Of a stretch of DNA of 64,000 bases, positions 10,546 through 47,474 are shown piece by piece; position 1 is the first letter of the stretch, and every line of letters begins with the position of its first letter. Location: assembly GCF_037392515.1 (NCBI RefSeq), contig NC_090280.1, positions 60,277,504 to 60,341,503 on the forward strand, in the 5' to 3' direction. Under the pieces are notes generated by a model, which worked only from the letters and a program-made list of their open reading frames with translations, searched no databases and had not been told where the DNA came from. The position numbers and the translations under genes were made by a program. The stretch comes from Haliotis asinina. Taxonomy: Eukaryota; Mollusca; Gastropoda; Lepetellida; Haliotidae.

Positions 10546-10573
10546 GGCACAAGCGCAATTTAAATGCACTGAG

Positions 10574-13421: not shown

Positions 13422-13609
13422 TGTAAACTCAGTTAATTTTAGAATTGTAAGTCAAAACAGGTCTCTTTCTATTTGTTGGTTTCACAGCTTGACCATTCGC
13501 GAGGAAGTCACCTTTAGACATTTTACATCTTTGAACTTGGGAATCACTTGATGGCGGGCAATTTGATTGACAGGTTTCTGCTGCAAACACGTATCACGTC
13601 GTGATATTT

Positions 13610-18635: not shown

Positions 18636-19509
18636 TGCATTGTGTGTGAAAAAACATTTACTCAGTCATGTAAACTTGGGATCCACATGAGGATTTACAC
18701 TTGAGTCAAGCCTTGTGAATGTGTTGAATGTGAATAAAGATTTACACAGTCATGTGGGCTTCAGAATTGCATGATGATTCACAGTAGAATCATGCAGTGA
18801 AGACTTAGCACTGTGTTGTTTTGGGAAAGGATGTACACATGCAGGCAGCGTGCAGAAACGCATCACGATTCAAAGTGTAGTCCCATCCTATCAGCAATGT
18901 TGCGAACATGGGAAAACATTTGCTCTGTCAGGTACTTTCAGCCAGGAAACACTTCAGAGGATTTACAGTAGAATCAACTGAATTTAAGTGTGCGTGTGTG
19001 TCTTCAAACATTTGTATATAACAAATAAATTCTTATGTAGGAAGTCTATATGTTTAGTCAGCCATGTCTGCACTAGCCCTTCTTTTTCGGGAACATTCCT
19101 TGGTCAAATGCAGACAAGTATTCCAGTCCCAGCAGGTGCATGCTTTACCACCAACTTTTGCTGAATAAAATTGACATTACCACCATACTGTCCTCTTTGT
19201 TGTAAGTGCCATGGGGAAGTGCTGATAGGTATTTTGTTAGCAGCTGGCCCAAGTTGACTGTTGTTCCACCATGAAGAAAACTGTGTTTTCTTTGGTAATA
19301 ACTATCTTACCACCTGCCTCATGTAGTAAACCTTGTCAGCATAGGGTTGGTAATGCATGTGAACTTAACTTTAGACAAATTTGATGAGGATAAATGAGTA
19401 GACCTGTGAGGTTGAATATCTTGAGTTTTACCATCTCAAACATACAAATTACACCTCAAGTCACAAGAAGATCATGTATTCAGCGGTGTTTGTATATCTG
19501 TCTGTACAT

Positions 19510-20815: not shown

Positions 20816-20820
20816 AAATG
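20816..20820. other. Target-site duplication, left of Polinton
   Basis: AAATG directly left of the inverted repeat is repeated at 35223-35227. If the first A of the repeat is counted with the target, the duplication is the 6-bp AAATGA expected for Polintons. Confidence 0.8.
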
Positions 20821-21143
20821 AGTAGTATAGGGAATGGGGGTTCTGGCTCACTTTCAAGAAATGTCTCTACAAAGCCTTATTTAGTAAATAAGGCTTTGGT
20901 TGGACCATTAGATCTTGCTACTATTACCCCTACTACAAAAAAGTTGGCGGTAATTACTGTGCCTTGGTAGGAGGTAACACTGTGCCGTACGGTACGATCA
21001 ATAATTCTTCTCTTACAAACCCCCTACCCGGCCCATCCCTCAAGTAGTACAAGTTAGGTTCGTCGGCTTTCATATCCACTTTATCTATGTTGTAAGTTTT
21101 GACTGACCATATAGGATCGGTGGCTCGCTTACGGCTATCGCCC
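20821..21143 (+). repeat. Polinton left terminal inverted repeat, 323 bp
   Basis: Identical by eye to the reverse complement of 34900-35222, beginning AGTAGTATAGGG. It includes the last 190 bp of the integrase gene (20954-21143) and a 27-base palindrome (20871-20897). Confidence 0.95.
20871..20897. repeat. 27-base palindrome in left inverted repeat
   Basis: AAAGCCTTATTTA, one central base, then its exact reverse complement. The partner copy in the right repeat is at 35146-35172. It lies about 50 bp from the element tip, where it could form a hairpin or a dimeric protein site. Confidence 0.85.
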
Positions 21144-21922
21144 TCGTGTTCCCCCGGCTGGTATAGATACCTCACTAGGGCCCTATCTGGTATCTGTTTC
21201 TCCTTCCCACGCAATGGAGCGGCCGACTCTGCAACTATTGATTTTAGTTTGATAGCGTCTGCCGGTTTCTTACCGGTGAGACGGGTGACTTCATGGTTGA
21301 TTGCCGACACCACCTTGGGTAACCTCGTGACCCATTCAGTCGATCGTTTTCCAGGGGTGGCCATCTCCCTAGCATACTGATAGCCGAACAAGCGCTCAGC
21401 CAAAGTCCTATTAAATCTCTCAACTATGGCTTGGCTGCGATGGGCTCCGGCCGTGCCACGCCTGACCTTTGTATCGTGTTTGGCTAGCAGTTGTGACACG
21501 GCACCCATGAACTCCCGTCCGGGGTCAACTTGCAGCTCTGTTGGCCACGTCAGTGGGCTGCGTTTGTATATGCGTTCGAATCCTCTGGCTACCTGGGCCG
21601 AATCTTTCGTGGTCAAGGGTTCGGCTTCCTTGTAACGACTGGCTACGTCCACTACGGTTAAGGCATACTTGTACCTCTTGTCGTGGGGTAGGAACAGTAG
21701 GTCTGCCTGGTGAATGCTATTAGGTATGTTAATACCGAACCTCCTTCTAGGCACGTAGCGTGGTGCCGGCAAATAGATCTGCCACAGGGCTTGTTTTTCA
21801 AGCCACGCTTTGGCTTCCTCCGGGGGTACTCGCGCTATTTTAGCTAGCTTATCTACTGCGCTAGCTCCTTTCCAGTACCCACGCGGGCTGTAGTAAATAG
21901 CCTCAAATTTTTTCATGTCCAT
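20954..21922 (-). CDS. Polinton integrase (DDE/RVE type)
   Basis: 322 codons. A retroviral-type integrase core spans about residues 65-200. The catalytic acids are placed as expected: Asp in HQADLLFL, Asp in QVDPGREF, and Glu in AIVERFNRTL. It cuts and joins the element ends to host DNA. The C-terminal 63 codons lie inside the terminal repeat and contain a chromo/SH3-like tail with YLRDGPGRGF. The start at 21922 overlaps the end of the polymerase gene by 20 bp, so the two are probably on one transcript, with integrase as the last gene of the leftward block. The frame is open throughout. Confidence 0.92.
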   Translation of the reverse strand: MDMKKFEAIYYSPRGYWKGASAVDKLAKIARVPPEEAKAWLEKQALWQIYLPAPRYVPRRRFGINIPNSIHQADLLFLPHDKRYKYALTVVDVASRYKEAEPLTTKDSAQVARGFERIYKRSPLTWPTELQVDPGREFMGAVSQLLAKHDTKVRRGTAGAHRSQAIVERFNRTLAERLFGYQYAREMATPGKRSTEWVTRLPKVVSAINHEVTRLTGKKPADAIKLKSIVAESAAPLRGKEKQIPDRALVRYLYQPGEHEGDSRKRATDPIWSVKTYNIDKVDMKADEPNLYYLRDGPGRGFVREELLIVPYGTVLPPTKAQ

Positions 21923-24900
21923 ACGCGTATGTGTTTATTCCATCAATAGCTATCCAACGTTTCGTGTCCATAGGCGATAGGGACGTCTTGTTTATAGTCA
22001 GTCCGTATATTTTATGCCCATCACTTCTAAGTGTGTTCATTTTATGTCTAAAGGTACGGGTCTTGAACAGGGCTTCCTTGAATCTGGCGTGTTTGATGTG
22101 TTGTTTCACCACATACTTCTTAACCCCCTTAGCCTTCCGGATCTCACTATTGTCGGCTTTCAGTATGGAGTACATCTTAGGTCTCAAACCTATGTACTCG
22201 GCTATGGGCGTGCCAGCACACTCGTCCTTCATCTTACCTAGGACCTTTTTATTTACCGTGCTGTGTAGGGTATGGGTCTTAGGGTAGTCGCTGGTGTCGT
22301 ATAAATCGAGGTGTTTTTTCATGTCCTCGTACACGTCCTTGGTTCGAATCTCCATCAGCAGGGAATCCGTGTCAGTGTACAGTACTTCACACCTGTCACC
22401 GTACTGTTTCTTGAGCTCGTTGTAGTAAAAGTCGTACATCAGGTGTTTGGATAAATCGAGGATGCTCATCCCCACGTAAACAGGCCGGTTGAATTTTATG
22501 TGGCTTTTCTTTATGTGTAGGGCAACCAGGTTGTCTGTGAATATCTTACTACGGTTGAATGCCGGACTGGCTATCAATTTCCTGAGCTTGTCTTCCTCAC
22601 TAGATCTAACCAGCTTCACGGTCACGCGTTTCCTCAGGTTTTCCATAGTCTTACCAAACACCGAGTTATTCATGAGCTTGTAGAGATTTTTCTCAAAATC
22701 ACTGGTGGCTTTTTTTCGTAGGTCTGTGTTCATTCTGATGTAGGGCTCCATCCATGGACTCTGGTCGAACATGAGCACCCTGTGTATTTTGGTCAGCCTC
22801 ATACCCAACGACAGGTACAGCTGTAGGTTGCGATAGTGAACGATGTACTTGGTCTTATTCATTAAGTTAGGCACGAGTTTTTCAACGTCTGTCACACGCC
22901 CACCTGACAAGTTATGTTGGTACTCAGACATCCAGTCTGGGTTAACCCTCATACGTTCGGGGGCCAGGGGGTAGCTGTTGTGTGATGTGTGTAATTCCTT
23001 GGTATACTCTAAGTCAACCTCGAGGATATACCCTTTGTTCGAATCTGGTGCAACCCCCATAACATCAACGTGGGGTACCCATTCGAATCCCCCTGTAGGT
23101 AGATACTGACTCATGGCCCAGCCGTACAGGTTGTTTGCGTCGAGGTAGAGAATGTGATTGGTTGGTTTGTTAGGATCGTAACCTTTCACATATTGATTAT
23201 TTGCTTTCGCGTATCGTTTGGATGCCATGGAAATCCCACCTCGCAAGCCTTTCTCAATGAATAGGTGCATGTCGTAATCTGTGAGCAATTCCAAATTAAC
23301 TCCGGTCTTTTTAAGCAAGGCGTCCCACGACAGACCTGGGCTGGTGTAATACCATGCGGGGTCGAGTTTATACTGCTTTAAACAAGTCCGCCTGAACGTT
23401 TCAAACACGTCGGCTAACAGCAGTACATCTGTCCTCAAGTACAGGTCGTGATAATCACCCAGGTTCTTACAACCCAGTTTATTCCATACGTTAGTCGCGT
23501 GCGAGTAATCATCTCGTGAGACGGACGCCTCATTCAGCTTGCTATAAAAGCAGTCAATAGGGGGTAGTCTGGTCTCGGTGAACTTAGCCCAATTATCCAT
23601 GTACTCATAGGGGTACACACCCTTCCTCATAAGCAGGGGTCTAGTCTCGGCATCTGTGTATCGATCGGTGATAGGGAAGGTATTGTTGGCCTTGACCAGA
23701 CTGTCGAGTGACGACAGGAGGAACTGAAACGAGTCAATGAACCTAAGTCCGTTTAAGCTGAAGGAGATGTATCTCTCCATGTTGTTGGGGATGCACGTTA
23801 TATTACCATCGATTTTCGCGATGGCCTGCATGATCAAGTGTGAGTCGTACCCTCTCAAGTTGTGAAAGACAACGGGGATGTTTATTGTCTTAGGGTTGAT
23901 TTTAAGCTTGAGGTTGCACGCGTTGTGAGCGGCGCCTCTATACTTACCAGTTATGTGGCAGTGATCTCTCACCGAATCACCGTTAAGTGGTGAGTCACAC
24001 ACGTGACAGTGAGTGCTACTAGCGTGAGCTAGCCTGTCGACTCGGGTCATACGCATGGGAGCGATTCTATACAATGCATTCCTAATAATTTTTTCTTCCT
24101 CCTGCAAACACTTTAGAAACCTTTCAGCCGCGTCAGGGCCCCTATACACTACCGGAGCTTTCGTTTCCCCGTCACAACGGACGACAATGTATCCAAACGA
24201 ACAGGCTTTATGCTCTTGTGTCTTGTGGGTGAAGCTACCCCCACTAGGGGAATCCCCACCCACAACTAAGGCTTCGAAGTCGGCGTATATAATATAAGGT
24301 ACAGACATTTGGTTCTTGTGGTTACTGAATTTTAGGATATTTTCACCTTCCTTAGGCATGTCGACTCGTATGGCCGTCTGCCCCACACCTTGACAATCAT
24401 CCCGGTGGGATTCTAATAAATCAGCTCGTGTGAAGCCATGTAGACATCGTTCACAGAAGTGGGTCTTTTCTCTGTGTGCCGATTGGTCATACAACAGCCT
24501 GCTAAAGTGTTTTATCCATGTGTAGTGATACTTGTCACCTCGCTGGATCATGAATATATTGATAACTTGGCGATCCTTCACCGGGCTGACCCTGTGTACT
24601 ATTGTTGTGTTACCTTCGTGCCCAAAGACATTTATAGCTAGATTATTCTGTTTTTCTACTTTAGTGATCTGGGATATGGGGGTGGGTTCATCTATACCAT
24701 CCCAATTAAGCCCATCATCTTGGGGATAGCTAGAAAGCCTATCTGAATTCTTACCAGCTGGAAATAAGGCTGACCTGATAGCTAACCTCAGGCAATCGTT
24801 TCCTCTATTCTTAACGTTTACTATGGCATGTTTGTTCCTATAGTAGGGAGGTAAAGCTAGGTATGACCCGCCTCTGAACGGCACGTAGTTAGCTATGTCT

Positions 24901-25595
24901 AGATAGACGTTATCGATTTTATCTACAGCCCACCCGGACCCCAAGTGTGTATAGCGTTCTAGGTATTCTCGTATCTGCTGAAAACTTGTATCGATTGATG
25001 CGTCAATGGTCTCTGCATGTGTGACGACCTCTTGTTGACCTCGGAAGTAAGGCTGAACATACTCAGTGGTACTCCCAACCTGCTTATCGAGCGACATTTT
25101 CACTGTGATCTGAAACTTGATACTTCCTAAGTTATTTAGTTCCTGGTTGACCTTATCAGCTATCAGAGGCTTGATATCTGTAATGTCTATGTTTTTATCA
25201 ACGTGCATGCGCCAACCTCTCAAATAGTTGCCTACAGCGCGCTCAGTGCGCACGAACTGTAGGTCAATAGCTCTATTCTGTCGTAATAATTCTACAAGCT
25301 GTGGTTTTCTCATACGGGAATACCCGCCTAAACCCAAATTGTGTGCCTCGACTTTCAGTTGTTTTACAGTGGGAGGTTTTGCTACGGGGGCATGTGATAA
25401 CAATGCGGTTAACCCGGCTCTCCCCAGGTTTGAATAACCCGTGTGTCCAAGCTGTTTTGCTTGAGCTTTTAATTGTTTTACCGTAGGAGGGGCTTCTAAA
25501 CCTAGTAATCTCAACAATGCTGACTTCCGCATTCTAGAATACCCGATAACACCTCTCTGTTTTGCGACCCTCTTGAGCTCGCTTACAGTAGACAT
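21903..25595 (-). CDS. Polinton protein-primed DNA polymerase B
   Basis: 1230 codons, the usual pPolB size. It copies the element using a protein primer. From the N-terminus: three SAP-like helix-extended-helix repeats (about 3-31, 38-67 and 76-106; each with a TVKQLK start and a GYS turn); a C2H2-like knuckle (381-401); the first exonuclease motif YADFEAL (437-443); an endonuclease-VII-like Cys/His zinc site (530-565); the second exonuclease motif HNLRGYDSHL (578-587); and polymerase motifs A (DANNLYGW, 819), B (NNSVFGKT, about 976) and C (YTDTDS, 1073). The SAP-like repeats suggest DNA or terminal-protein contact (inference). The start at 25595 leaves a spacer of about 60 bp to the upstream gene. 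Confidence 0.95.
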   Translation of the reverse strand: MSTVSELKRVAKQRGVIGYSRMRKSALLRLLGLEAPPTVKQLKAQAKQLGHTGYSNLGRAGLTALLSHAPVAKPPTVKQLKVEAHNLGLGGYSRMRKPQLVELLRQNRAIDLQFVRTERAVGNYLRGWRMHVDKNIDITDIKPLIADKVNQELNNLGSIKFQITVKMSLDKQVGSTTEYVQPYFRGQQEVVTHAETIDASIDTSFQQIREYLERYTHLGSGWAVDKIDNVYLDIANYVPFRGGSYLALPPYYRNKHAIVNVKNRGNDCLRLAIRSALFPAGKNSDRLSSYPQDDGLNWDGIDEPTPISQITKVEKQNNLAINVFGHEGNTTIVHRVSPVKDRQVINIFMIQRGDKYHYTWIKHFSRLLYDQSAHREKTHFCERCLHGFTRADLLESHRDDCQGVGQTAIRVDMPKEGENILKFSNHKNQMSVPYIIYADFEALVVGGDSPSGGSFTHKTQEHKACSFGYIVVRCDGETKAPVVYRGPDAAERFLKCLQEEEKIIRNALYRIAPMRMTRVDRLAHASSTHCHVCDSPLNGDSVRDHCHITGKYRGAAHNACNLKLKINPKTINIPVVFHNLRGYDSHLIMQAIAKIDGNITCIPNNMERYISFSLNGLRFIDSFQFLLSSLDSLVKANNTFPITDRYTDAETRPLLMRKGVYPYEYMDNWAKFTETRLPPIDCFYSKLNEASVSRDDYSHATNVWNKLGCKNLGDYHDLYLRTDVLLLADVFETFRRTCLKQYKLDPAWYYTSPGLSWDALLKKTGVNLELLTDYDMHLFIEKGLRGGISMASKRYAKANNQYVKGYDPNKPTNHILYLDANNLYGWAMSQYLPTGGFEWVPHVDVMGVAPDSNKGYILEVDLEYTKELHTSHNSYPLAPERMRVNPDWMSEYQHNLSGGRVTDVEKLVPNLMNKTKYIVHYRNLQLYLSLGMRLTKIHRVLMFDQSPWMEPYIRMNTDLRKKATSDFEKNLYKLMNNSVFGKTMENLRKRVTVKLVRSSEEDKLRKLIASPAFNRSKIFTDNLVALHIKKSHIKFNRPVYVGMSILDLSKHLMYDFYYNELKKQYGDRCEVLYTDTDSLLMEIRTKDVYEDMKKHLDLYDTSDYPKTHTLHSTVNKKVLGKMKDECAGTPIAEYIGLRPKMYSILKADNSEIRKAKGVKKYVVKQHIKHARFKEALFKTRTFRHKMNTLRSDGHKIYGLTINKTSLSPMDTKRWIAIDGINTYAYGHEKI

Positions 25596-25653
25596 CGTGT
25601 TTACACCTAAGAGAACTAATGTCTAATTGGTTCACAGTAAGGGGAGGTAACTC

Positions 25654-25914
25654 TTAAGTGGCTATCTTGAGCAGTCGCCTACGTTCTTTTATGTAGCCTT
25701 TTTTATTCTCGTATATGAGTTGATGTCTGACTACGTTCGCTCCGTGAGCTTTACATAAACAGTAGTGCCCTTTAACCCCGATACCACACACAGAACACGT
25801 GTAGTTAGGACTTCCCATATGGAAACAACAGAACCCCTGATTCCTGCATTTCCTACCACAGGCCTCGGTCTTCCCCATAAGTATGTATTCGCATCGGTAT
25901 GGAGCGGGTCTCAT
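25654..25914 (-). CDS. Small Cys-rich zinc-knuckle protein (Polinton)
   Basis: 86 codons with ten Cys residues and several His arranged as CEY...CGRKC...CCFH...CSVCG...CLCKAHG, suggesting two zinc-binding knuckles, followed by a basic C-terminus (KERRRLLK). It may bind nucleic acid. The gene lies between the polymerase and a membrane protein in the leftward block. I do not recognise a named family. The start is chosen as the first Met after the spacer. Confidence 0.7.
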   Translation of the reverse strand: MRPAPYRCEYILMGKTEACGRKCRNQGFCCFHMGSPNYTCSVCGIGVKGHYCLCKAHGANVVRHQLIYENKKGYIKERRRLLKIAT

Positions 25915-25933
25915 GTTTACTTATATAGGTATT

Positions 25934-26359
25934 TTAGTTTAATTGCTTCGCAACCAACGCAGTAGCTGCTATACCCAACACTATGAAGCCCAGTTCACGA
26001 TTCATTTGTCCCTTGGATGGTGTGTAGTACTGAGCGAGTGTGGGTTTATTGAGCGGTTCCAATTGTTTACCAGTTAGTAGGTAGTATTCTTTCATTGCTT
26101 CATCGACATCGTAGAATGTTTTAATGGCATGGTTTTCACGCTTGAGTTGTTCGTTAATAAAATCGATCCTCTGGAGGCGTTTTTTAACGTACTCGTCCTG
26201 TGCTCTTTGTAATTTCTCAGTAGCGAGATCGTGTCGCTTCCTTTCTTCCTGTATTTCAGCCGCGTGATCATCTCGTAGTTTCGAGAAGAGGTAATTACTC
26301 CCGGAAAATGCCAGGGCATTCACTAACGCCCCACCGACCATCATAGCTATCGTGGCCAT
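25934..26359 (-). CDS. Membrane / coiled-coil protein (Polinton), unknown function
   Basis: 141 codons: a hydrophobic N-terminus (about 1-28), a highly charged helical middle (30-95) with a heptad-like pattern, and a C-terminal hydrophobic segment (LGFIVLGIAATALVA, about 124-138). It could be a two-membrane-pass virion or assembly protein, or a scaffold. Only 8 bp separate it from the next gene upstream (26368). Family not recognised. Confidence 0.7.
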   Translation of the reverse strand: MATIAMMVGGALVNALAFSGSNYLFSKLRDDHAAEIQEERKRHDLATEKLQRAQDEYVKKRLQRIDFINEQLKRENHAIKTFYDVDEAMKEYYLLTGKQLEPLNKPTLAQYYTPSKGQMNRELGFIVLGIAATALVAKQLN

Positions 26360-26367
26360 CCCTATAT

Positions 26368-26595
26368 TTATTTCATTATATTATCAGGTATTATTCCTTG
26401 TTTTACTAGGATGTCTTTTGTGGCCATCGCCATACCAAGGTTCATTATAAGCATACCCATATCCTGCAGGTTGAAATCTAGCTTGATAGTTGGTTGTTTA
26501 AGCACCATTTTAGTCAACCGAGCGTACCCTACTGCTAGACTGGCTACCACTGTGGCGTGGTATGCGTCGTTGACGAACGTTTTCCCCTCAGACAT
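26368..26595 (-). CDS. Small hydrophobic protein (Polinton)
   Basis: 75 codons with two mildly hydrophobic helices (about 13-32 and 45-63) rich in Met, Ala and Val. It has no Cys and no known motif. The start is preceded by TATATAAAAATA-like sequence on the coding strand, a plausible promoter. The position among small membrane genes suggests a virion membrane or assembly role (inference). Confidence 0.6.
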   Translation of the reverse strand: MSEGKTFVNDAYHATVVASLAVGYARLTKMVLKQPTIKLDFNLQDMGMLIMNLGMAMATKDILVKQGIIPDNIMK

Positions 26596-26620
26596 TATGT
26601 ATATATAAAAATATTTTAAA

Positions 26621-26983
26621 TTATAACATGATATGCGGATCTACCGTGGGGGATACCCCCACACCCCCACTGTTGGGGGATACCCCCATACCCCCACTGT
26701 TGTGGGTGGGTGGTGGCTCACTGTGGGAGGCGTATAACCACGAGATAGCCAAGGCAGCAGTTACACCTACAGCCAACAACAGTCGGGTTGGGTTGGCCAC
26801 TTTATGTTGGTTACACCACCGTTTTTTACCGGCAGCTACTCTCTTAGGATTCTTCTGTCTGGTTACTGTTGGGGGTACCCCCACTGAAGGGGTCTCCACC
26901 GTCACCTCGGGACTCACTGTTTGGGGTGTGGGGGGTACCACCACTGGGGTCTCCTCCACTGGGGTTTCCTGTGCAGCATCCAT
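26621..26983 (-). CDS. Proline-rich single-pass membrane protein (Polinton)
   Basis: 120 codons: a Pro/Thr/Val-rich N-terminal half, a basic stretch (RQKNPKRVAAGKKRW), one hydrophobic segment (LLLAVGVTAALAISWLY, about 68-84), then a repeated GGVGVSP-type tail encoded by a tandem GC-rich palindromic repeat (26643-26705). The first 140 bp overlap the end of the next gene upstream in another frame. No family recognised. Confidence 0.6.
   Translation of the reverse strand: MDAAQETPVEETPVVVPPTPQTVSPEVTVETPSVGVPPTVTRQKNPKRVAAGKKRWCNQHKVANPTRLLLAVGVTAALAISWLYASHSEPPPTHNSGGMGVSPNSGGVGVSPTVDPHIML
26643..26705. repeat. Tandem GC palindrome unit x2
   Basis: Two copies of GGGGGATACCCCC (26648-26660, 26675-26687) embedded in 27-bp units that encode the repeat SPNSGGxGV in the gene 26621-26983. 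The same palindrome type recurs through the Polinton at 24247, 26871, 27379, 28258, 30468 and 30822. Confidence 0.8.
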
Positions 26984-27440
26984 CTATACTATTATTATTC
27001 TTTCTCTCAAATTGACAATGTTTTGCTGTGATAATCGCCGCCGTCACTGGAGCCAACAACATACCATATTTGTGGTACAGCCCGCAGCTGATAGAGCTCA
27101 CGGCGTGTTCGATAAAAGGGTCTTTCTCGAGGTCCTCCCACAGGTAAAGTCGGCGCTCTGGTGGAATGGGAAGGAAGTGTGATACAATACCGGTGTATAT
27201 CTGGGTCATAGCCGATCCTATTGTCTTTGTCATTTCTGCTCCGAGCCGGGACTCGTATCTAGCGTACAGCTTATCGATTTCTTCGGCTGACATTTTGTGA
27301 ATTTTATCCGGGGTGTAGTCTCCAAAGTAATGTTTGGCTTTGCCGCCAACAGCCAACGCCACCAGTTTCTCTCGCTTGGGGGAATCCCCAGTGGGGGAAC
27401 CCTCCAACGACAATTGTTCGAGCAATTCCTCACACTCCAT
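26844..27440 (-). CDS. Polinton protein of unknown function, Gly/Pro-rich tail
   Basis: 198 codons from the Met at 27440, which has a good initiation context (AAGATGG) and TATA-like sequence just upstream. The frame is open further, to 27548, and would add a hydrophobic 36-residue leader, so a signal-anchor form is possible. It is mainly helical and charged (KHYFGDYTPDKIHKMSAEEI region), with a hydrophobic stretch LLAPVTAAIIT, then a low-complexity Gly/Ser/Pro/Asn tail that overlaps the downstream gene by 140 bp. No catalytic motif is recognised; in particular it does not show a protease triad. Confidence 0.65.
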   Translation of the reverse strand: MECEELLEQLSLEGSPTGDSPKREKLVALAVGGKAKHYFGDYTPDKIHKMSAEEIDKLYARYESRLGAEMTKTIGSAMTQIYTGIVSHFLPIPPERRLYLWEDLEKDPFIEHAVSSISCGLYHKYGMLLAPVTAAIITAKHCQFERKNNNSIDGCCTGNPSGGDPSGGTPHTPNSESRGDGGDPFSGGTPNSNQTEES

Positions 27441-27547
27441 CTTATAATATAACAAGTAAGATTTAGTTTTAACTATATAATACCCGATACAGACAAAACA
27501 CAGAGAAATGAAAGTTAAGTTGCACACGACAAATACTTCAAATATCA

Positions 27548-27632
27548 TAGCTTTGCTTAGCTTTTGCTTAGCTTTGCTTAGCTTTTGCTTAGCTTTGCTT
27601 AGCTTTAGCTTAGCTTTGCTTAGCTTTGCTTA
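27548..27632 (+). repeat. GCTTTGCTTA tandem repeat, about 8 units of 10-11 bp
   Basis: Alternating GCTTTGCTTA and GCTTTTGCTTA units fill the gap between the unknown gene and the ATPase gene. The last unit supplies the ATPase stop codon. It could be a transcription end or spacer, or polymerase slippage. Confidence 0.85.
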
Positions 27633-28301
27633 GCAAACTATATATGCTACTGGTTGGTCGGTCTTTAGAACGAGCTTAGCGTGTTTAGTTTCAGCGAGCT
27701 GTTTCTTCACCCGTTCCCGTTCTAATTTATTCATCACATCGTTCTCTCTCAAACACTCCTCAAACGAATCCCTGTCCTTACAGTGAAATAAGGCCACCCA
27801 TCGCGTCTGCTCCCTGAGGTCTTTCAACACCGAGTTGAACTTCTGCGTTAGCACCCAGACGCTGTGATTTGCATGCCGGCCGGAGAAGGCCAGGTACGAT
27901 AGCATGTCTCTCTTTTTTGTTATCTCGCGATTAGCGCTGCAGTCGTCCAGTATAAACAGCGTCGGTTCCCCTTTAAATTTCTCGTGAAGAGCTTTCAACC
28001 AGTCCTGCAGGCGTGTTCCAGGGTCGATTTTGTGTACGTCCGGGTCCGTCATCACCCAAGGTCGCGCGTACGTTTTATTCATGCTCAGAGTAGGGCACAT
28101 GATAACGATGTTATCGAACACATCCTTGTAGTAACCCTCCAACATATCCAACACGAAAACGGTCTTCCCACAGCCAGTCTGCCCGCATATGATAGCGCAG
28201 TGTGGGTCAGTGGGTAACCCCAGGGGGCTGTGGGGCAGTTTATTGTTGGGGGGTGTGGGGGGGTACCCCCCATCAGTAGATGGCTTGCACGAATCTCCCA
28301 T
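27630..28301 (-). CDS. Polinton genome-packaging ATPase (FtsK/HerA type)
   Basis: 223 codons. Walker A GQTGCGKT (about residues 39-46), Walker B LFILDDC with the catalytic acid, and a downstream sensor-like VLTQKFNSV block are typical of the A32-like packaging ATPase of double-jelly-roll viruses. The enzyme drives DNA into the preformed capsid. The N-terminal linker is Pro-rich and is encoded by a GC palindrome (28258-28271). The start overlaps the 3' end of the major capsid gene by 29 bp, so both are read from one leftward transcript. Confidence 0.92.
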   Translation of the reverse strand: MGDSCKPSTDGGYPPTPPNNKLPHSPLGLPTDPHCAIICGQTGCGKTVFVLDMLEGYYKDVFDNIVIMCPTLSMNKTYARPWVMTDPDVHKIDPGTRLQDWLKALHEKFKGEPTLFILDDCSANREITKKRDMLSYLAFSGRHANHSVWVLTQKFNSVLKDLREQTRWVALFHCKDRDSFEECLRENDVMNKLERERVKKQLAETKHAKLVLKTDQPVAYIVC

Positions 28302-29535
28302 TGTCTATATTAAGTTGCGCGTCCATAATAACGTACAGATATAATTTCAACTTACCAGCGGGTTGAGCCTTCTTAGTAATCTGGATGGTTATCCCTTCGC
28401 TGCCGTTATCTATACGACGCCCGCTACCGTGCAGTTTATCATCATCCGTGGATCGCATGTCCAACCATAGGGCGTACTTGGTGGTCAGGTATTCACCGAT
28501 CTGCACGGAGCCGAGGTCCAGGTCCTTTGTTATATAATGTTGGGTCCCCACTGGTAGCTTTTTTATCTCATCCCACTGCTGGTGTGGTCTCATACCATGA
28601 CTGAACAGCTGGTTGGGCACGCCCTCGATGGTAACTTCCACCTTTTCAATCTCGGGGTTGAAAAACTTCTCGCTGTCCCTCCGGAATGGATCATAATCCT
28701 CCACGGGGACGACCAGGATACCTTTCATTGATCGCGCCGGCACGTTCAGGTTGATATTCCACACAGTGTCGCTCTTATCTCGCACGACTGATCTATGTCT
28801 CAGTACGCGATCGTACAGGATAGCCATCTTCCCAGAGTACTGGCTTCGAACCTGCCTGGCCAGCTCCGGGCTAGTGACCATGTCGAACTCCAGAGAGATG
28901 TTGTCTATGGAATAACTGGCCTCATCACCGTTCGGCGTACGCACTACTTTGCTATAGTCGTTAAACGTGAGCTCGTATTCTAGCCTATCACCCAGCGCGG
29001 CCTGGTAAAACGGCGCGTGTCCCGTGAGCAACTCGAAGTCGAGCGGCACGCAGAATCGATTCCCGTATGCTAGAGCGATGGCCTTTTCACCGGGCGATAG
29101 CTTGTCTTGCTGGTCTGTCGTGAAGACGTATCCTATGCGCGCCCGGGTTGATTTGCTGATACCCTGGTACACATCATTGACTCGTTCTCCCTCGCTTTTC
29201 CAGAGATCCTTGTGGCAGTGAAACACGTCGCTGTCGTCGATGCTCAGCACCTCGTTACCGCTGATCTTGACGGTCGTTTTCTTGATGATAGCTCGACCCA
29301 CGTTCCGCACTAGCTCGCGTTTGTCGTTGTCGGAGGTCAACGTGATATTGAACGCCAGTCGAACAGTGCCTGGTACAATGAGGTCATTCTCACCAAGGTT
29401 TGGAAATCTAACCAGCAGAGTTTGATTCTGGTCTATCTTGCTGGGATTGTTGGTGATGGTCACCGACTGGCGCACGGCTCTGGCACCTAATGGCTCTCTC
29501 AATTTTCTGAAAGGATCTAATTTTCTACCGTACAT
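28273..29535 (-). CDS. Polinton major capsid protein (double jelly roll)
   Basis: 420 codons, within the range of Polinton MCPs. It is beta-rich throughout with short loops, has no Cys clusters or membrane segment, and ends with a LYLYVIMDAQL strand typical of jelly-roll proteins of this group. Identity rests on size, beta pattern and position directly ahead of the packaging ATPase. It would form the hexon-like capsomers. The start at 29535 lies 33 bp from the divergent gene at 29569, with a TATA-rich spacer. Confidence 0.85.
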   Translation of the reverse strand: MYGRKLDPFRKLREPLGARAVRQSVTITNNPSKIDQNQTLLVRFPNLGENDLIVPGTVRLAFNITLTSDNDKRELVRNVGRAIIKKTTVKISGNEVLSIDDSDVFHCHKDLWKSEGERVNDVYQGISKSTRARIGYVFTTDQQDKLSPGEKAIALAYGNRFCVPLDFELLTGHAPFYQAALGDRLEYELTFNDYSKVVRTPNGDEASYSIDNISLEFDMVTSPELARQVRSQYSGKMAILYDRVLRHRSVVRDKSDTVWNINLNVPARSMKGILVVPVEDYDPFRRDSEKFFNPEIEKVEVTIEGVPNQLFSHGMRPHQQWDEIKKLPVGTQHYITKDLDLGSVQIGEYLTTKYALWLDMRSTDDDKLHGSGRRIDNGSEGITIQITKKAQPAGKLKLYLYVIMDAQLNIDNGRFVQAIY

Positions 29536-29568
29536 TGTTATATATAAATAAAATATATTTAAATACTA
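29536..29568. promoter_or_regulatory. Bidirectional AT-rich promoter spacer
   Basis: 33 bp between divergent start codons, reading TATATATAAATAAAATATAT: TATA-like in both directions. It probably serves the MCP block (left) and the 29569 gene (right). Confidence 0.5.
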
Positions 29569-30738
29569 ATGGATGAAGACATACCTATGGATGAGATACC
29601 GGGCGCTAGTGCCCAGGCATTCGATGATGAGCAGGAGACCTCATTTACTAGTTCGCCATTGAGCCAAGAACTTTTGGCAACAACGGTAGATGATTATTAC
29701 GAAAGTTTAAGAAGTGATAAAAACTACGTTAATCCACAGGGTCGATACATTGATAATTTTTTTATTGATACAAAGGGTGTTCTACGCCTTAAGTCTAAAC
29801 CAGAGGTTGACCTCGTTAACAAGCGCAATAAAAAACCACTGGCCTTATCAACTCTAGCCAGACGCTATGGTGTTGAATTTATCCGTGAACATCTAAACAT
29901 GCATGATTACGGTGGTGCAATACCTAAGGCCGTTGTTGAAGATCTGCAAGCTACCAGATCCCACCTCACCACTAGAGATGAAATGACACCGCAGCGTGCT
30001 ACAGAAGCCTCGGACAGCATAGAAAAACTGTTGAGCACCTACTGGGACAAACCGTTACCGGGGTTTGACTTTCCGGTAAGGGAACTGCGCGGCTTAGACG
30101 AAGCCGTGAAACGCGTGCGTGGAGAACTCGTGAACAACATGGGGAAACTGAACGAAATCGACGAGCACATCGCTAGGGAAAAAACCAAACTAAACGAAAC
30201 TGAAAACGATGATATGAAGCGTCGTATCAATGAACGAATACGTGATTTAGAAGACGAGAGACGTACACGATTGGAAGCCGCTTCCTCGAATCGTGAACAG
30301 CTTCGATCCCAGATCAGTCGTATTCGGGAAACAATCGATAGAATACTGAATAAGGATACAACTTTAGCCAACAGGATTCGGATATTGTTCCGGGAGCAAG
30401 GGATCACCATCGCCAGCATTCTAACTGCATTGGGTTTCATCATATCAACCCTGGTGGTGTCACTGACGGGGGGAACCCCTGTGGGTCCTGCCGGCGGAGG
30501 GGGAACTCCCAGCGGTGGTGGTGGTGTTAAAGACTGGATTAAAAAACTCAGGGAAGGCCTAGCTAAACTGGCTGGTAAAGCCGCCGAAGCCCTTCCCGGC
30601 ATCCTGGGTAGCATCGTCTCGTGGTTGTTGGGCGCTCTGTCTAAAACTGCCATGTGGCTCAGTCAAAACCTGTGGGCAGCCATCGTCGCAGTGGCGGGTC
30701 TGGTGTACGTAGCGGCTAAGAAATCTTTAACCAAATAA
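29569..30738 (+). CDS. Polinton coiled-coil / membrane-active protein
   Basis: 389 codons. An acidic N-terminus; a conserved block with YIDNFFIDTKGVLRLKSKPE (about 60-80) and LALSTLARRYG; a long charged coiled coil (about 180-265); a hydrophobic segment (ITIASILTALGFIISTLVVS); a Gly/Pro-rich linker made by a GC palindrome; then an amphipathic and hydrophobic C-terminus (KDWIKKLREGLAKLAGKA and onward), ending in a membrane helix. I recall the same layout in other animal Polintons, function unknown. A capsid-internal, membrane-disrupting role like adenovirus protein VI is possible (inference). The 3' end overlaps the convergent gene by 23 bp. Confidence 0.75.
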   Translation: MDEDIPMDEIPGASAQAFDDEQETSFTSSPLSQELLATTVDDYYESLRSDKNYVNPQGRYIDNFFIDTKGVLRLKSKPEVDLVNKRNKKPLALSTLARRYGVEFIREHLNMHDYGGAIPKAVVEDLQATRSHLTTRDEMTPQRATEASDSIEKLLSTYWDKPLPGFDFPVRELRGLDEAVKRVRGELVNNMGKLNEIDEHIAREKTKLNETENDDMKRRINERIRDLEDERRTRLEAASSNREQLRSQISRIRETIDRILNKDTTLANRIRILFREQGITIASILTALGFIISTLVVSLTGGTPVGPAGGGGTPSGGGGVKDWIKKLREGLAKLAGKAAEALPGILGSIVSWLLGALSKTAMWLSQNLWAAIVAVAGLVYVAAKKSLTK

Positions 30739-31939
30739 GTCCCAAAGTTACCCCACCAACCACTAGGGCTGTTTTATTATCAATATGCTGCTGATTGGAG
30801 GCCTGAATATGGGGGTGTGTGGGGGGTACCCCCACATGAACTTTAGGCTCCGGAGGTGGCTCCACTATACCCGTTTCACGTGGTGGGATGTGTGGGATAT
30901 AGGGGGTGTTAATATCGGGGTTGATGCCCAACTTTTGGTCCGCCGTGGCTATGACTATTTTGTTGTTATAACCCACCACTTTTTTTACTCTCAGTTGCAT
31001 ATCACTCGGAGACATATACAGCCCCACACCGAACACGTAGTTAACTTTCGATCTGGCGTATTCTAACACGTTTTGGTAGCGTTCGATGGCCCGCGGGAGA
31101 TCAACTGGAGAATTAATAGCATCCTCAACGTTGGCAACGAACTGTTTCTGAGCGTCGTAAGCAGTTCCCTTACCGATGATGTTGGAACGCGTTTGCGACT
31201 GCGCACCCAACAGCGACCACACATACGTTCGAATCGAGTCGTTCAAGCGTATTGTACCAGCACGAGTGAATCCTTTCGATGTGTCCAGCATGAACATTTT
31301 CCACCCGTCTGCGGTTGACTGCTCCACTTTCTGGACTGTGAAAGCAACACCACCTTTAAAGTTCATACGATCATCCCTCCATTCATTACTCGACAAAGCA
31401 AAGTCCGGGCGTAGTTTACCTTGTTTCAGTACAAGATCACTGAGTTCTTTCACTGATCGCACGCCATCAGAAGGAATACCCAACCCGTGGTTCGGCCCCG
31501 GCAAACGCCAATCCGTCTTCGGGTTTATTTCGAATTCATTACAAATACGTTCGTAGGCCCGTCTATCGTATGGGTTGTTTGTTGCGTCCCACGCTTTGTC
31601 CTGTGGGAGGGGGGCACTGATCTCTTTAAGGATACGTCTGACCTGGTAGTACACGTGGAACTTGAACACAGACTGACTCAGCGGTCCACGCTGAGAGTCG
31701 GCCAATGCCACACCACACCCCGTTGTAGCGCACCACACAGCAAAGTTGAATTGATTCTGCCAGAACTGCATAGGGTTGTTGAACCACGCGTGGACTGCCT
31801 CAATGTTAGTCACCATAAGCTTATACTTATCGAACACATCTAAAAGCTGGGCATTGAAATACAACTCAGGAGCAACCACGATCTTCATGGGGGAGAAATC
31901 TACATCCAGTTTAGGGTAAAACACACCAGGGGAATACAT
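30716..31939 (-). CDS. Polinton conserved protein, C-terminal membrane anchor
   Basis: 407 codons from the Met at 31939 (MYSPGVFYPKL), chosen because the extra 42 codons upstream run through the promoter spacer and the opposite gene. A large globular part with a WFNNPMQFWQNQFNFAVWC block near residues 52-70, a Pro-rich linker (EPPPEPKVHVGVPPTHPH) partly made by a GC palindrome (30822-30833), and a C-terminal hydrophobic segment (ALVVGGVTLGLIWL). Similar proteins occur in other Polintons as I recall. A virion or entry role is likely but not shown. Confidence 0.7.
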   Translation of the reverse strand: MYSPGVFYPKLDVDFSPMKIVVAPELYFNAQLLDVFDKYKLMVTNIEAVHAWFNNPMQFWQNQFNFAVWCATTGCGVALADSQRGPLSQSVFKFHVYYQVRRILKEISAPLPQDKAWDATNNPYDRRAYERICNEFEINPKTDWRLPGPNHGLGIPSDGVRSVKELSDLVLKQGKLRPDFALSSNEWRDDRMNFKGGVAFTVQKVEQSTADGWKMFMLDTSKGFTRAGTIRLNDSIRTYVWSLLGAQSQTRSNIIGKGTAYDAQKQFVANVEDAINSPVDLPRAIERYQNVLEYARSKVNYVFGVGLYMSPSDMQLRVKKVVGYNNKIVIATADQKLGINPDINTPYIPHIPPRETGIVEPPPEPKVHVGVPPTHPHIQASNQQHIDNKTALVVGGVTLGLIWLKIS

Positions 31940-31974
31940 TTTAAAACTATTATATAAATAAATATATATGTAAT
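31940..31974. promoter_or_regulatory. Bidirectional AT-rich promoter spacer
   Basis: 35 bp between divergent starts with TATATAAATAAATATATATG: TATA-like both ways, same design as 29536-29568. Confidence 0.5.
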
Positions 31975-32628
31975 ATGTACATAACACTTCCAGGAATAAC
32001 GAGCGGTGAGGCCGTTCAGCTGACGCACGCGATCGATAACACGTCAGGTCAACTCGAAGTCGCACTCTGTGATATCACCTACCTACCGCAATGGACTAAC
32101 ATTAATATCAGCAACAATAAGCTGTTCGTCAGTGGAACTCGCAGCCAGATAACTGGCGGCTACTACAGCGTGTGCTCGCTAAACGACGAGGTCTTCAAAC
32201 CCCTGGGAGCCGAACTCAAGATGAACGACTCAAACGGCACAGTGGTGTTAATCAACAACGGAAGAACCTCCTTGAGGCTCGGCCGGCCATTAGCGAGGAT
32301 ACTCGGTATGTCTCCTGACGAGATAAAACCAACAACAACCGTCACAGGCACGAAGTTACCCGACCTAGTACCGTACCGAGAGCTGTACATTCATCTCGGT
32401 CAGGTGAGCACAACGTATAACATTCAAGGAGGTCACCCTTCCACTATATTGAGAGCAGTGCCGGTGAAAACTGAGAAATTCAACGACGGTAGAACCGAGT
32501 CATTTTCACCACGGCAGTATAAGAGATTAACCCAGGGCAACATACCTGAGCTGACAATATCGGTGTTAGATATAAATCATAATCCTGTAAATATAGGATA
32601 CCTCAGCTTAACGCTTCACGTAACATGA
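31975..32628 (+). CDS. Polinton penton-like minor capsid protein
   Basis: 217 codons, beta-rich, no membrane segment. The C-terminal strand pair (LTISVLDINHNPVNIGYLSL then TLHV) resembles the end of single-jelly-roll penton proteins of Polintons, where a DxxGNPxxL turn precedes the last strand. It would occupy the five-fold vertices of the capsid. It heads a rightward block and its stop overlaps the next start (ATGA). Confidence 0.75.
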   Translation: MYITLPGITSGEAVQLTHAIDNTSGQLEVALCDITYLPQWTNINISNNKLFVSGTRSQITGGYYSVCSLNDEVFKPLGAELKMNDSNGTVVLINNGRTSLRLGRPLARILGMSPDEIKPTTTVTGTKLPDLVPYRELYIHLGQVSTTYNIQGGHPSTILRAVPVKTEKFNDGRTESFSPRQYKRLTQGNIPELTISVLDINHNPVNIGYLSLTLHVT

Positions 32629-33536
32629 CCAGCGCACAAGGGCCCGGAGTGAAAAAATGCGTCAATATCGGGATCTCCGACCTCGGAGACACGCGCGGTT
32701 TCGACGCTCCCGGAGTAGATGGTAAATCGTATGCCTTGCAACTGAAAAACAACATTTACAAACGCGTTGAAGTCACCTCCGGTGGAACCCTAAGTGATAT
32801 AGTAGATACCACAAGAGCAACAGTCAACACTAAGTACACCCTTGTCAACACCGGTGATAATAATTGGGTAATATACCCATCGTTCGGTGGTAAACTGTTC
32901 GACTTAGACGATGTTGAGAGCACTACCGTCGTCAAAAACAAACCATATATGCTCGTCTTCACCGAAGATGACAAGTGGGTGTTGTTACCCGATAACAAAT
33001 GGTTTCTCAATATTAAACTCGTCTCCCCTTACGTGTTCACGGATAACAAAGACAACCACCTAAACAAAGTCGTGAACAATGGAACCCTGCTCGTGGCTTA
33101 CGTCCCAACTCATAGACGTAGTATAGTCGTCAGCCCAGTCAACACTATAGCAGCCCACATGCTATCGAGTAAACCGGCCATGCAAAACGTGAAATTGCAG
33201 TTGGTGTCTGAATTCGAAGGCGTGGTCAAGATACTAGAGGATCTACCGGCAAACTCAACATTGTTCATCAAAGTCTACCTAGGGGAACCATCGGGGAATG
33301 ATGTCGAGATCGTGAAGGGGATCAAACTCGGGTGGGTGAAACGACACCAGTTTCAAGTTTGCAACGTTTACGTGCGGGTGGGTGTCGACTCCAAGACCAG
33401 TCTGCAGGGGGTCAACGTGATCGTGGAAAACAAGATATCATTAATCAATATATTCCTGCCTGACAACATACACTTCATGGGTATTAAGTTAACCCCTGAA
33501 TTATTATCAGAAAACCAGTTGGAAATTATATCATAA
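32625..33536 (+). CDS. Spike/fibre-like protein candidate 1 (Polinton)
   Basis: 303 codons; the start overlaps the penton stop (ATGA), so the two are translationally close. The N-terminal module DLGDTRGFDAPG...NNIYKRV (about 18-48) is shared with the next gene. The central and C-terminal parts are beta-rich and include a WFLNIKLVSPYVFT block that also has a counterpart there. It has no membrane segment and few Cys. Location behind the penton gene and a shared N-terminus with a different body suggest a vertex spike, fibre or receptor-binding protein (inference). No family recognised. Confidence 0.65.
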   Translation: MTSAQGPGVKKCVNIGISDLGDTRGFDAPGVDGKSYALQLKNNIYKRVEVTSGGTLSDIVDTTRATVNTKYTLVNTGDNNWVIYPSFGGKLFDLDDVESTTVVKNKPYMLVFTEDDKWVLLPDNKWFLNIKLVSPYVFTDNKDNHLNKVVNNGTLLVAYVPTHRRSIVVSPVNTIAAHMLSSKPAMQNVKLQLVSEFEGVVKILEDLPANSTLFIKVYLGEPSGNDVEIVKGIKLGWVKRHQFQVCNVYVRVGVDSKTSLQGVNVIVENKISLINIFLPDNIHFMGIKLTPELLSENQLEIIS

Positions 33537-33546
33537 TAGTATAATA

Positions 33547-34251
33547 ATGACCAGTCATCATCCCAACACTACGCTTAACGACCTGGGAGATACGGAGGGA
33601 TTCGATCAGCCTGGTGAGGAAGATGAATTATACATCCTGCACTTCAAAGACAACGTGTACAGACGGGTGTCGTTATCAGATTTAAAAGAACCCAAATGGC
33701 TGATCAACTTAACACTCGCCTCACCTTATATCACAACAAAAGAGGGGTGGAGGTTTATCTCTAAGATTAGGAATAACGGTATCTGGCCCGGGGATTTCAT
33801 TACGGGGAATGAAGCAACAGCCGAGGTATATTTTCATGAAGGAAAAATTGGATTAATTTCTGGAATAGAAAGTAAATTAACATTTAGCAGTAGTTATTTA
33901 CACGAAAGGCAGCTTGAGATATACTCCCCCTACACAATCATCATAGAAGTCATGTTTACGTATTTTGACCAGGAAAACTCCTCAAAAGGACGTCAATTTT
34001 TACCCGGGGTGTCAATACACTGGTTTACCGAACACTTAAATCAATATTGCCGTATTATTATACAACGGGATACCCCCACGGGTTCTATAAAACGTTTAAT
34101 AAGCCTGAGTGGGGTTTTTATTACAACAGAAAAGTCTATTAACCTCTCACCTCTTAGCATTAGTTATGATCTACTCCTTATAGGCTTCAAATACATTGAT
34201 AGACTATTAACTGAAACCCAATTAAAATATTTTTCAAAATATATATTATAG
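33547..34251 (+). CDS. Spike/fibre-like protein candidate 2, paralogue
   Basis: 234 codons, 10 bp after the previous gene. Shared with it: DLGDTEGFDQPG...DNVYRRV (about 12-40), a WLINLTLASPYITT block, a following IRNNG, and an ending T-E-x-Q-L. The two bodies otherwise differ, and this copy lacks about 60 residues found between the first two blocks of its partner. Base composition is more AT-rich than in neighbours in the second half. A tandem duplication that then diverged is the simplest reading. Confidence 0.65.
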   Translation: MTSHHPNTTLNDLGDTEGFDQPGEEDELYILHFKDNVYRRVSLSDLKEPKWLINLTLASPYITTKEGWRFISKIRNNGIWPGDFITGNEATAEVYFHEGKIGLISGIESKLTFSSSYLHERQLEIYSPYTIIIEVMFTYFDQENSSKGRQFLPGVSIHWFTEHLNQYCRIIIQRDTPTGSIKRLISLSGVFITTEKSINLSPLSISYDLLLIGFKYIDRLLTETQLKYFSKYIL

Positions 34252-34252
34252 G

Positions 34253-34870
34253 ATGGGTCTGTACCCAGTCGTAGAGGAAGTAGCGAAGACGTTGGAAACC
34301 GTAGATGGGTTCCGCTTGAGGCAGTTATGTGATGTGAAACGTCAACTAGAACAAGACCGTGACACGCGGAAAGCACTATGTAAAAAGTACAATAGAGCTT
34401 TCAATATCGTGGACGGGGCTGACACTACCCTTATGGTAACCAGCATGGGACTAGGGGCGGCAGGCGTTGGGTTGTTAACCACAATCGTGGCTGCACCTAT
34501 AGTGCTAGGTATTGAAATAACGGCTGGGGTGACAGGGTTGGTAGGGTTGGCGCTTAAGTTAGTATCACGCAGACTTAATCGTAAGGCATTGAAACATGAC
34601 GAGATCAGGGTTCTGGCCGAAGCAAAGCTCAACACAGTGAGTGAGCGAATTTCCACGGCACTCTCTGATAGTAAGATCTCAGAAGAGGAGTTTCGTTCAA
34701 TCCTATCTGAACTCACAAAATATAACGGAATGAAACAAGATATTCGGTCCAAGTCTCGTAAGTCTGCTATCAGCGAGGATGAGAAAAAAAAGTACATAGA
34801 ACAGGGGATACAAAAAGCCCAACAAGCCTTTATTACGAACACCAAAGAGATCATAGGCGGTTCACGTTAA
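34253..34870 (+). CDS. Polinton two-pass membrane protein with coiled coil
   Basis: 205 codons starting one base after the previous stop. An N-terminal helical part (LRQLCDVKRQLEQDRDTR), two hydrophobic segments (about 59-80 and 82-102, Gly/Ala/Val-rich with VGLLTTIVAAPIVLGIEIT), then a long charged helical tail with SKISEEEFRSIL. I recall this as a frequent open gene of animal Polintons without known function. It is the last gene before the right terminal repeat. Confidence 0.75.
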   Translation: MGLYPVVEEVAKTLETVDGFRLRQLCDVKRQLEQDRDTRKALCKKYNRAFNIVDGADTTLMVTSMGLGAAGVGLLTTIVAAPIVLGIEITAGVTGLVGLALKLVSRRLNRKALKHDEIRVLAEAKLNTVSERISTALSDSKISEEEFRSILSELTKYNGMKQDIRSKSRKSAISEDEKKKYIEQGIQKAQQAFITNTKEIIGGSR

Positions 34871-34899
34871 ACTGTTTCATCGATATAAACATAACATAG

Positions 34900-35222
34900 G
34901 GGCGATAGCCGTAAGCGAGCCACCGATCCTATATGGTCAGTCAAAACTTACAACATAGATAAAGTGGATATGAAAGCCGACGAACCTAACTTGTACTACT
35001 TGAGGGATGGGCCGGGTAGGGGGTTTGTAAGAGAAGAATTATTGATCGTACCGTACGGCACAGTGTTACCTCCTACCAAGGCACAGTAATTACCGCCAAC
35101 TTTTTTGTAGTAGGGGTAATAGTAGCAAGATCTAATGGTCCAACCAAAGCCTTATTTACTAAATAAGGCTTTGTAGAGACATTTCTTGAAAGTGAGCCAG
35201 AACCCCCATTCCCTATACTACT
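34900..35222 (-). repeat. Polinton right terminal inverted repeat, 323 bp
   Basis: Reverse complement of 20821-21143 with no difference seen. The inner 190 bp (34900-35089) are a second copy of the integrase 3' end, including its stop. The inner 30 bp upstream (34871-34899) are unique. Confidence 0.95.
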
Positions 35223-35227
35223 AAATG
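35223..35227. other. Target-site duplication, right of Polinton
   Basis: AAATG(A), matching 20816-20820. Confidence 0.8.
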
Positions 35228-47470: not shown

Positions 47471-47474
47471 TCAT

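Follow-up and report, generated by a model that had tools for sequence, protein, structure and literature searches.

The locus and its genes

The window analysed here is a stretch of 64,000 nucleotides from Haliotis asinina (assembly GCF_037392515.1, contig NC_090280.1, positions 60,277,504 to 60,341,503 of the forward strand), and at its positions 20,821 to 35,222 it holds a Polinton-like element. The original prediction, made from the letters of the window, had described a Polinton whose ends match by eye, whose target duplication is still visible and whose main genes are all open. Computed comparison of the two terminal inverted repeats (TIRs; 20821-21143 and 34900-35222) gave a match at 323 of 323 bases, with divergence from base 324; the element begins and ends with AGTAGTATAG...CTATACTACT, termini of the AGTAGT...ACTACT type. 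The target site duplication (TSD) AAATG stands on both sides, and the 13 main open reading frames (ORFs) are all free of internal stops, so that this description holds in each of its parts. The base following AAATG is an A and coincides with base 1 of the TIR, so the site taken alone fits a TSD of either 5 or 6 bp; across the family, with both ends read, it measures 5 bp in 28 of 29 copies and 6 bp in one. The features are as follows, dN/dS being the ratio of nonsynonymous to synonymous substitution rates.

20816..20820, no strand: left TSD, AAATG, 5 bp (the length in 28 of 29 copies)
20821..21143, + strand: left TIR, 323 bp, AGTAGT end (end-to-end comparison; copies found genome-wide)
20954..21922, - strand: RVE-type integrase (INT), 322 amino acids (Pfam rve PF00665, 2.1e-10, above cut-off; dN/dS 0.23)
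21903..25595, - strand: PolB, 1230 amino acids (PF03175, 3.5e-6 on a sub-piece; dN/dS 0.15)
25654..25914, - strand: p86, small and Cys-rich (ORF and comparison of copies)
25934..26359, - strand: p141 (ORF and comparison of copies)
26844..27548, - strand: p234, hydrophobic N-terminus (86-96% identical to 10 other copies)
27630..28301, - strand: genome-packaging ATPase, pox A32-like, Walker A GQTGCGKT (Pfam Pox_A32, 1.3e-8, above cut-off)
28273..29535, - strand: MCP, probable capsid protein (weak Pfam match to Capsid_N, 0.0056, under cut-off)
29569..30738, + strand: p389, coiled-coil-like middle (weak matches), membrane-like segments at the C-terminus
30716..31939, - strand: p407, the ATG-start form of a 449-codon ORF, with an N-terminal cassette
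31975..32628, + strand: p217, candidate penton or minor capsid protein (by position; dN/dS 0.16)
32625..33536, + strand: p303, better conserved paralogue of p234b, with the common N-terminal tail
33547..34251, + strand: p234b, hypervariable and fibre-like, nearly constant tail, variable part at about 33690-34180
34253..34870, + strand: p205, conserved, membrane-like segment (hydropathy; dN/dS 0.20)
34900..35222, - strand: right TIR, same sequence as the left (end-to-end comparison)
35223..35227, no strand: right TSD, AAATG (flank comparison)

A young member of a large family

When the assembly (1.14 Gb in 159 contigs, the window lying on a 106-Mb contig) was searched with the terminal 30-mer at up to three mismatches, 388 forward and 387 reverse matches were returned, against 0 and 0 for the reversed 30-mer used as control, which excludes a chance origin; an inverted repeat arisen by chance was thereby ruled out. 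This puts the family at about 390 copies which, if full length, make up near 0.5% of the genome. This is the genome-wide count that the original prediction had looked to. Of the 775 termini, the 100 listed are the mismatch-free ones; 94 of these form 47 pairs, 39 of them spaced 13.9-14.9 kb and the other eight 1.2 to 20.5 kb apart. A 1.2-kb pair with perfect 30-base termini (contig C12:37648722-37649938) is perhaps a non-autonomous deletion derivative.

Divergence between the two TIRs of a copy was scored in 29 copies, namely every copy that contributes one TIR or both to the 40 full-length matches closest to the TIR of the window copy. There was no mismatch in eight and one in seven, the others ranging up to 16, for a total of 98 in 9,082 aligned columns (mean 1.1%). 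Two of the eight mismatch-free copies are gapped (14 or 9 bases), and the ends are identical throughout in six of the 29, the window copy included. Zero differences in 323 bases place the TIR divergence of this copy below about 0.9% (rule of three), and its insertion at under roughly 1-2.3 million years for an assumed 2-5e-9 substitutions per site per year. The CpG ratio is a second sign of a young element, observed over expected being 0.90 in the element and 0.50 and 0.54 in the flanks. That the insertion is very recent and possibly active, as first proposed, is thus borne out by identical ends, open genes, lack of CpG decay and the many near-identical copies. The further claim that it stands out needs qualifying: the copy is young, but it is one of about 390 and shares ends identical throughout with other copies examined.

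Among the ten full-length copies (those with both TIRs among the 40 most similar), which were read in pieces, seven show neither a stop nor a frame break in the parts read. Since copies were chosen by similarity or by hand, the age spectrum above and the type frequencies given below are not those of a random sample of the 390.

Insertion events are directly visible through empty sites. The flanks of the 29 copies and the window formed the search space, and junction-spanning paralogous empty sites were found for nine of the 29, six at 80% identity or more. One empty site is gap-free over 260 bp and matches window positions 13163-13422; this segment is one copy of a dispersed repeat that has received insertions of several other family members, and it represents the empty site of the copy at C4:31.53 Mb. 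For the window copy, the assembly contains no empty allele of the site (two of two candidates are its own two flanks) and the window contains no paralogue of the target; as the assembly holds its own flanks only, the insertion may be fixed or merely unsampled.

Cassettes exchanged between copies

The window copy was compared with the 10 other full-length copies and with the cassette region of 10 more loci, hand-picked from the 100 best MCP matches. The nucleotide identity profile covers about 21.0-25.6 and 30.0-35.0 kb, and the middle of the element was compared by gene. In the profiled parts most of the backbone shows 94-100% nucleotide identity, falling lower locally (to 86-96% near 24.4 kb, for example). 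Proteins of different copies are likewise close: INT 98-100%, PolB 97-98, MCP 96-98, ATPase 91-99, p234 86-96, p217 94-100, p205 91-100 and p303 88-100. In p86 no amino-acid change is seen in 10 other copies over the 62-86 residues that were aligned.

Against this background, many copies show sharp-edged drops in identity at three places: 29581-30370 in p389, about 31270-31980 in p407 and about 33690-34180 in p234b. In many of the 20 copies compared these cassettes stand at 48-83%, the lowest protein identities being 48% for p389, 63% for p407 and 62% for p234b. At 15% distance the 21 copies fall into two types of p389, two of p407 and eight of p234b. Synonymous divergence (dS) between types of p389 and p407 is mostly 0.45-0.75 (two p389 values reach 1.2 and 1.6), compared with means of 0.03-0.11 for backbone genes.

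The cassettes assort nearly independently. The four combinations of p389 and p407 types all occur (AA 7, AB 5, BA 3 and BB 6 of 21), and distance correlations among the three cassettes are 0.03, 0.07 and 0.09. Individual pairs of copies tell the same story. The window copy and copy C9_14.07 have identical p407 cassettes and TIRs two bases apart, with p389 cassettes 32% apart; copy C4_2.14 matches the window copy at 97-100% over 29.5-33.7 kb and then at 67-86% through p234b. We conclude that three cassettes, the N-terminal parts of p389 and p407 and the C-terminal part of p234b, are swapped between copies by recombination.

Two other structural observations concern the family. Between p86 and PolB (25596-25653 in the window), about 380 additional bases are present in five of the 10 other full-length copies; they are probable in a sixth, whose p86 lies outside the piece read, and absent from the window copy and the remaining four. 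Contig C26 bears three p234b copies of equal score (74%) within 185 kb, perhaps a segmental array.

Diversifying selection on p234b

Mean pairwise dN/dS, computed without stop codons, gapped codons and the p389 parts cut at piece borders, is 0.23 for INT, 0.15 for PolB, 0.28 for p141, 0.27 for p234, 0.17 for ATPase and 0.13 for MCP (11 copies each), and 0.16 for p217, 0.20 for p205, 0.45 for p389, 0.38 for p407, 0.58 for p303 and 1.38 for p234b (21 copies each). The eight backbone genes (INT, PolB, p141, p234, ATPase, MCP, p217 and p205) are under purifying selection, with ratios of 0.13-0.28.

In p234b the order of the two rates is inverted: dN is 0.184 and dS 0.133, with dN above dS in 99.9% of site bootstraps. 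Over the variable part dN rises to 0.259 for a dS of 0.142, and dN exceeds dS in 196 of 201 diverged pairs; among representatives of the types, the proportion of nonsynonymous differences (pN) exceeds that of synonymous ones (pS) in 24 of 28 pairs. Third codon positions change least (0.36, 0.36 and 0.28 at positions one to three). A purpose-written sites test (M1a against M2a), with relative branch lengths fixed from iqtree2, was run on sets from which near-duplicates had been removed and whose size was limited (12 of 21 copies for p234b, 11 for p303, 10 for p217, nine for MCP, seven for p205, six for PolB). For p234b, twice the log-likelihood difference (2dlnL) is 270, with about 31% of sites at an omega (dN/dS in this test) of about 6.7. 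Blocks analysed on separate trees give p=0.99 for the tail and p=7e-28, 2e-10 and 5e-14 for the three variable blocks. p303 gives a 2dlnL of 24.2 (p=6e-6), and the control genes p217, p205 and MCP give p=0.41, 0.11 and 0.49. Thus the N-terminal tail of p234b is nearly constant while the rest of the protein evolves under strong diversifying selection, and diversifying selection acts more weakly on p303. Across the genome, 142 of the 150 p234b candidates scored (of 3821) are stop-free, at identities from 100 down to 74%.

Cassette diversity combined with diversifying selection is the most interesting property of the family, and one of which the original prediction made no mention.

Relationship to known Polintons

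The element is a Polinton in the broad sense, with an RVE integrase, a protein-primed PolB, a pox A32-like ATPase and a probable capsid protein. The integrase, of the RVE family expected of Polintons or Mavericks (Polintoviricetes), has catalytic residues D74, D133 and E168, with 34 residues between the last two, and the left TIR contains the final 63 codons of its gene. It scores 2.5e-16 against the IS481 model, yet under that model's cut-off; rve is its sole above-cut-off Pfam match, and the C-terminal chromodomain typical of adintovirus integrases was not found. PolB as a whole protein matches Rho_N (Rho_N-like repeats) and Endonuclease_7 (endonuclease VII-like) in Pfam. Its polymerase match, PF03175, lies just above cut-off and came from one of two sub-pieces, neither the whole protein nor the second sub-piece giving a PolB match. 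Motifs A, B and C and the exonuclease motifs were located, and the expected vOTU region holds one Cys and one His; the names of the motifs follow general usage and PMC11071308. The ATPase, a packaging ATPase as Polintons have, also matches a phage terminase family (2.5e-8); a tblastn search of phages with it returned no match.

The structural genes are less readily placed. By its position, p217 may be the single jelly-roll penton or a minor capsid protein; it has no family match in Pfam. In the genome, the best 100 of 2738 MCP candidates were scored, and all 100 are open and 97-100% identical. Searches of PDB sequences with MCP, p407 (as the 449-codon ORF), PolB, p303 and a p234b profile gave nothing useful. 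Hydropathy indicates no membrane-like segment in p234b, which is adjacent to its paralogue p303 and has the same kind of N-terminal tail.

On two points the assignment to Polintons falls short of the usual description. The ends are long TIRs of the AGT type (323 bp), as expected, but the TSD is of 5 bp in 28 of 29 copies and not of 6; Mavericks with 5-bp TSDs are reportedly known from the work of Pritham in 2007. In addition, none of 14 ORFs has a Pfam match to the Ulp1/adenain cysteine protease. The latter is not disqualifying, since a protease is identifiable in 74% of Polintons (PMC4028283). The name Polinton given in the original prediction stands in the broad sense.

Vertebrate Mavericks, as described in PMC8097293, are among the closest known systems. 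AGTAGT...ACTACT is their commonest end motif, the (AGT)2...(ACT)2 ends are common to both, and the present element agrees with the ranges reported for TIR and total size. PolB, integrase and ATPase are under purifying selection in both, and some vertebrate genomes also hold many copies, the axolotl up to 287, all seemingly defective. The abalone family differs in its 5-bp TSD, in the lack of a detected protease and in the A32-like ATPase adjoining the capsid gene, as well as in the many open copies among those examined, where at most 38 intact copies per genome are given for vertebrates. In cyprinid Mavericks all eight core genes are under strong purifying selection (omega about 0.001; PMC8097293), in contrast to the cassette diversity and the gene with omega above 1 found here.

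Adintoviruses and "meldviruses" such as Meld23486 likewise combine PolB and a retrovirus-like integrase with virion genes resembling those of poxviruses (PMC11071296); compared by description, the present element differs in its host, a mollusc, and in having no detected integrase chromodomain. Nematode Mavericks with a fusogen are also Polintons bearing a putative surface or entry gene (PMC10680173), but p234b has no membrane-like segment, is hypervariable and lies next to a paralogue. Phage-like fibres of Polinton-like viruses and the paired fibres of some adenoviruses are modular, penton-bound attachment proteins, sometimes two per penton (PMC12220804); p234b beside p303 resembles such pairs, although neither matches any of their domains. 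Mavericks are known from mollusc genomes (PMC5439488, PMC10294476). In the present assembly, 16 matches to the haemocyanin domain PF14830 form two clusters of eight; the domain is a mark of molluscs, and eight units per gene most likely point to a gastropod. COX1, tried as a second host marker, had no match in the assembly. Among the top-ranked papers listed in literature searches, none described animal Polintons with diversifying selection or with reassorting cassettes, which is weak evidence of absence, subscription papers lying outside those searches.

Neighbourhood of the element

The element sits between two of three segments of C2H2 zinc-finger arrays (8006-8977, 17971-18858 and 55866-57589), related to one another, built of 84-bp repeats and in part interrupted by stops. 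A large imperfect inverted repeat occupies 43203-50399, with several abutting arms of about 2 kb per side, 92-98% complementary, around a 3.2-kb centre. Tandem repeats occur at 36364-36544 (23-bp unit) and 10270-10569 (50-bp unit). ORF fragments at 35886-36350, 39031-39507, 61068-62110 and 63275-63727 resemble decayed remains of an integrase, a mariner-like element, a DIRS-like RNase H/recombinase and a DDE transposase.

Discussion

We propose that the window element inserted recently, that it is structurally complete and that it belongs to an endogenous family of Polinton-like DNA viruses which has multiplied in a mollusc, and we give the explanation as a whole a probability of roughly 0.6. 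With a nearly constant N-terminal tail followed by a variable and positively selected remainder, p234b has the architecture of a virion fibre or receptor-binding protein, and we infer that, with its paralogue p303, it is a putative fibre-like receptor-binding or surface protein in the virion of a virus that is infectious still or was so recently. In the copies read, nearly identical replication genes go together with three putative structural genes that diverge strongly and are mixed among copies, one of them selected to diversify; this suggests that the element makes, or recently made, infectious particles. Going by gene content and known relatives, the likely life cycle would have PolB replicate the linear genome by protein priming at the TIRs and the integrase insert the product into host DNA with a 5-bp stagger, while the capsid protein and ATPase could assemble and load particles. 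In its most inferential step, the tail of p234b would attach to the particle and the variable part would face receptors or host immunity. On this view the integrated copies would be the record of an infectious population whose surface variants are akin to serotypes. We put forward tentatively, at somewhat short of even odds, the fuller view that the family is a still or very recently circulating infectious polintovirus of a gastropod, its 390 or so copies an archive of recombining serotypes, with p234b as receptor-binding head and p389 and p407 as two-type structural partners.

Several observations weigh against this proposal. Three of the ten full-length copies are damaged in PolB or p234b: two have a stop in PolB, accompanied in one by a stop in p234b and in the other by a p407/p217 deletion, and the third combines a broken PolB frame with a p234b stop. 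The assignments of MCP and of the penton are weak. Some segments outside the cassettes keep a common history, with correlations up to 0.49. As for selection, one of four disjoint p234b pairs is individually significant, the window copy and C9_14.07 have a p234b dN (0.221) lower than dS (0.238), and the fourth control gene, PolB, reaches p=0.019 in the sites test; the last result means that some of the test signal stems from recombination or broken copies, a contribution far below the p234b signal. No relative of p234b was found in Pfam (0 of 9 members) or with a profile in PDB (0 matches), so that no known fibre or head domain is identified. Its predicted structure, aligned with p303, has a mean predicted local distance difference test score (pLDDT) of 30.1, and that of MCP alone (AlphaFold) one of 34.9; both were unusable and were not used. 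The fibre role is thus argued from architecture and selection. Finally, no virion or transcript was seen, and searches of viral contigs with MCP, ATPase, PolB, p407, INT, p217 and p234b as queries returned no free viral relative.

This last negative result also bears on what we regard as an unlikely, though by no means negligible, explanation: that the element is a purely intracellular, self-copying transposon, no particle ever leaves the cell, and the opponent of p234b in its arms race is a host restriction factor of the nucleus or cytoplasm, not a receptor. Such an element would be endogenous and numerous, as the copies are, and the lack of any match to p234b in the libraries searched fits it as well. 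However, the capsid-like gene and the packaging ATPase are under purifying selection (dN/dS 0.13 and 0.17), and a constant tail with a variable rest, next to a better conserved paralogue, fits an attached surface protein better.

It is improbable that cassette diversity is a by-product of recombination among a few old Polinton lineages, devoid of present selection for variety. For p389 and p407 the idea has some appeal, given their two types each, the depth of the split between types (dS mostly 0.45-0.75 against 0.03-0.11 in the backbone) and dN/dS below 1. p234b does not conform to it, with eight types at 15% distance among 21 copies, low dS and dN above dS, and with the least change at third codon positions, unlike the outcome of neutral mixing. 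We consider very improbable an old insertion whose ends were equalised by gene conversion. It is compatible with TIR identity taken alone, but fits poorly with an interior that shows no decay (open genes, and a CpG ratio of 0.90 compared with 0.50-0.54 in the flanks) and with the clean TSD; moreover, TIR pairs differ by 0-16 mismatches over 29 copies, a spread that would not be expected if conversion generally held the two ends alike. Lastly, although long near-identical repeats assemble poorly, and the three equal-scoring p234b copies on contig C26 might raise the suspicion, it is scarcely credible that the mosaic copies are artefacts of collapsed or mis-joined repeats, for every one of the four p389-p407 combinations is found on several chromosome-scale contigs and all 29 copies have matched TSDs at both ends, which mis-joins would tend to break.

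The proposal that the family is, or recently was, infectious bears on the nature of animal Polintons. According to PMC8097293, Maverick virions had not been observed, and the question whether animal Polintons are transposons or viruses has leaned largely on capsid genes. With a sequenced host and many open copies, particles, expression and insertion polymorphism are here open to direct search. Diversifying selection focused on one putative surface gene and weakly on its paralogue, together with purifying selection on the other genes and the exchange of cassettes, is the trace expected of a virus population that faces receptors or immunity, and is harder to explain for an element confined to the cell. 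If our reading is correct, it would constitute evolutionary evidence of an extracellular, receptor-using phase in an animal Polinton.

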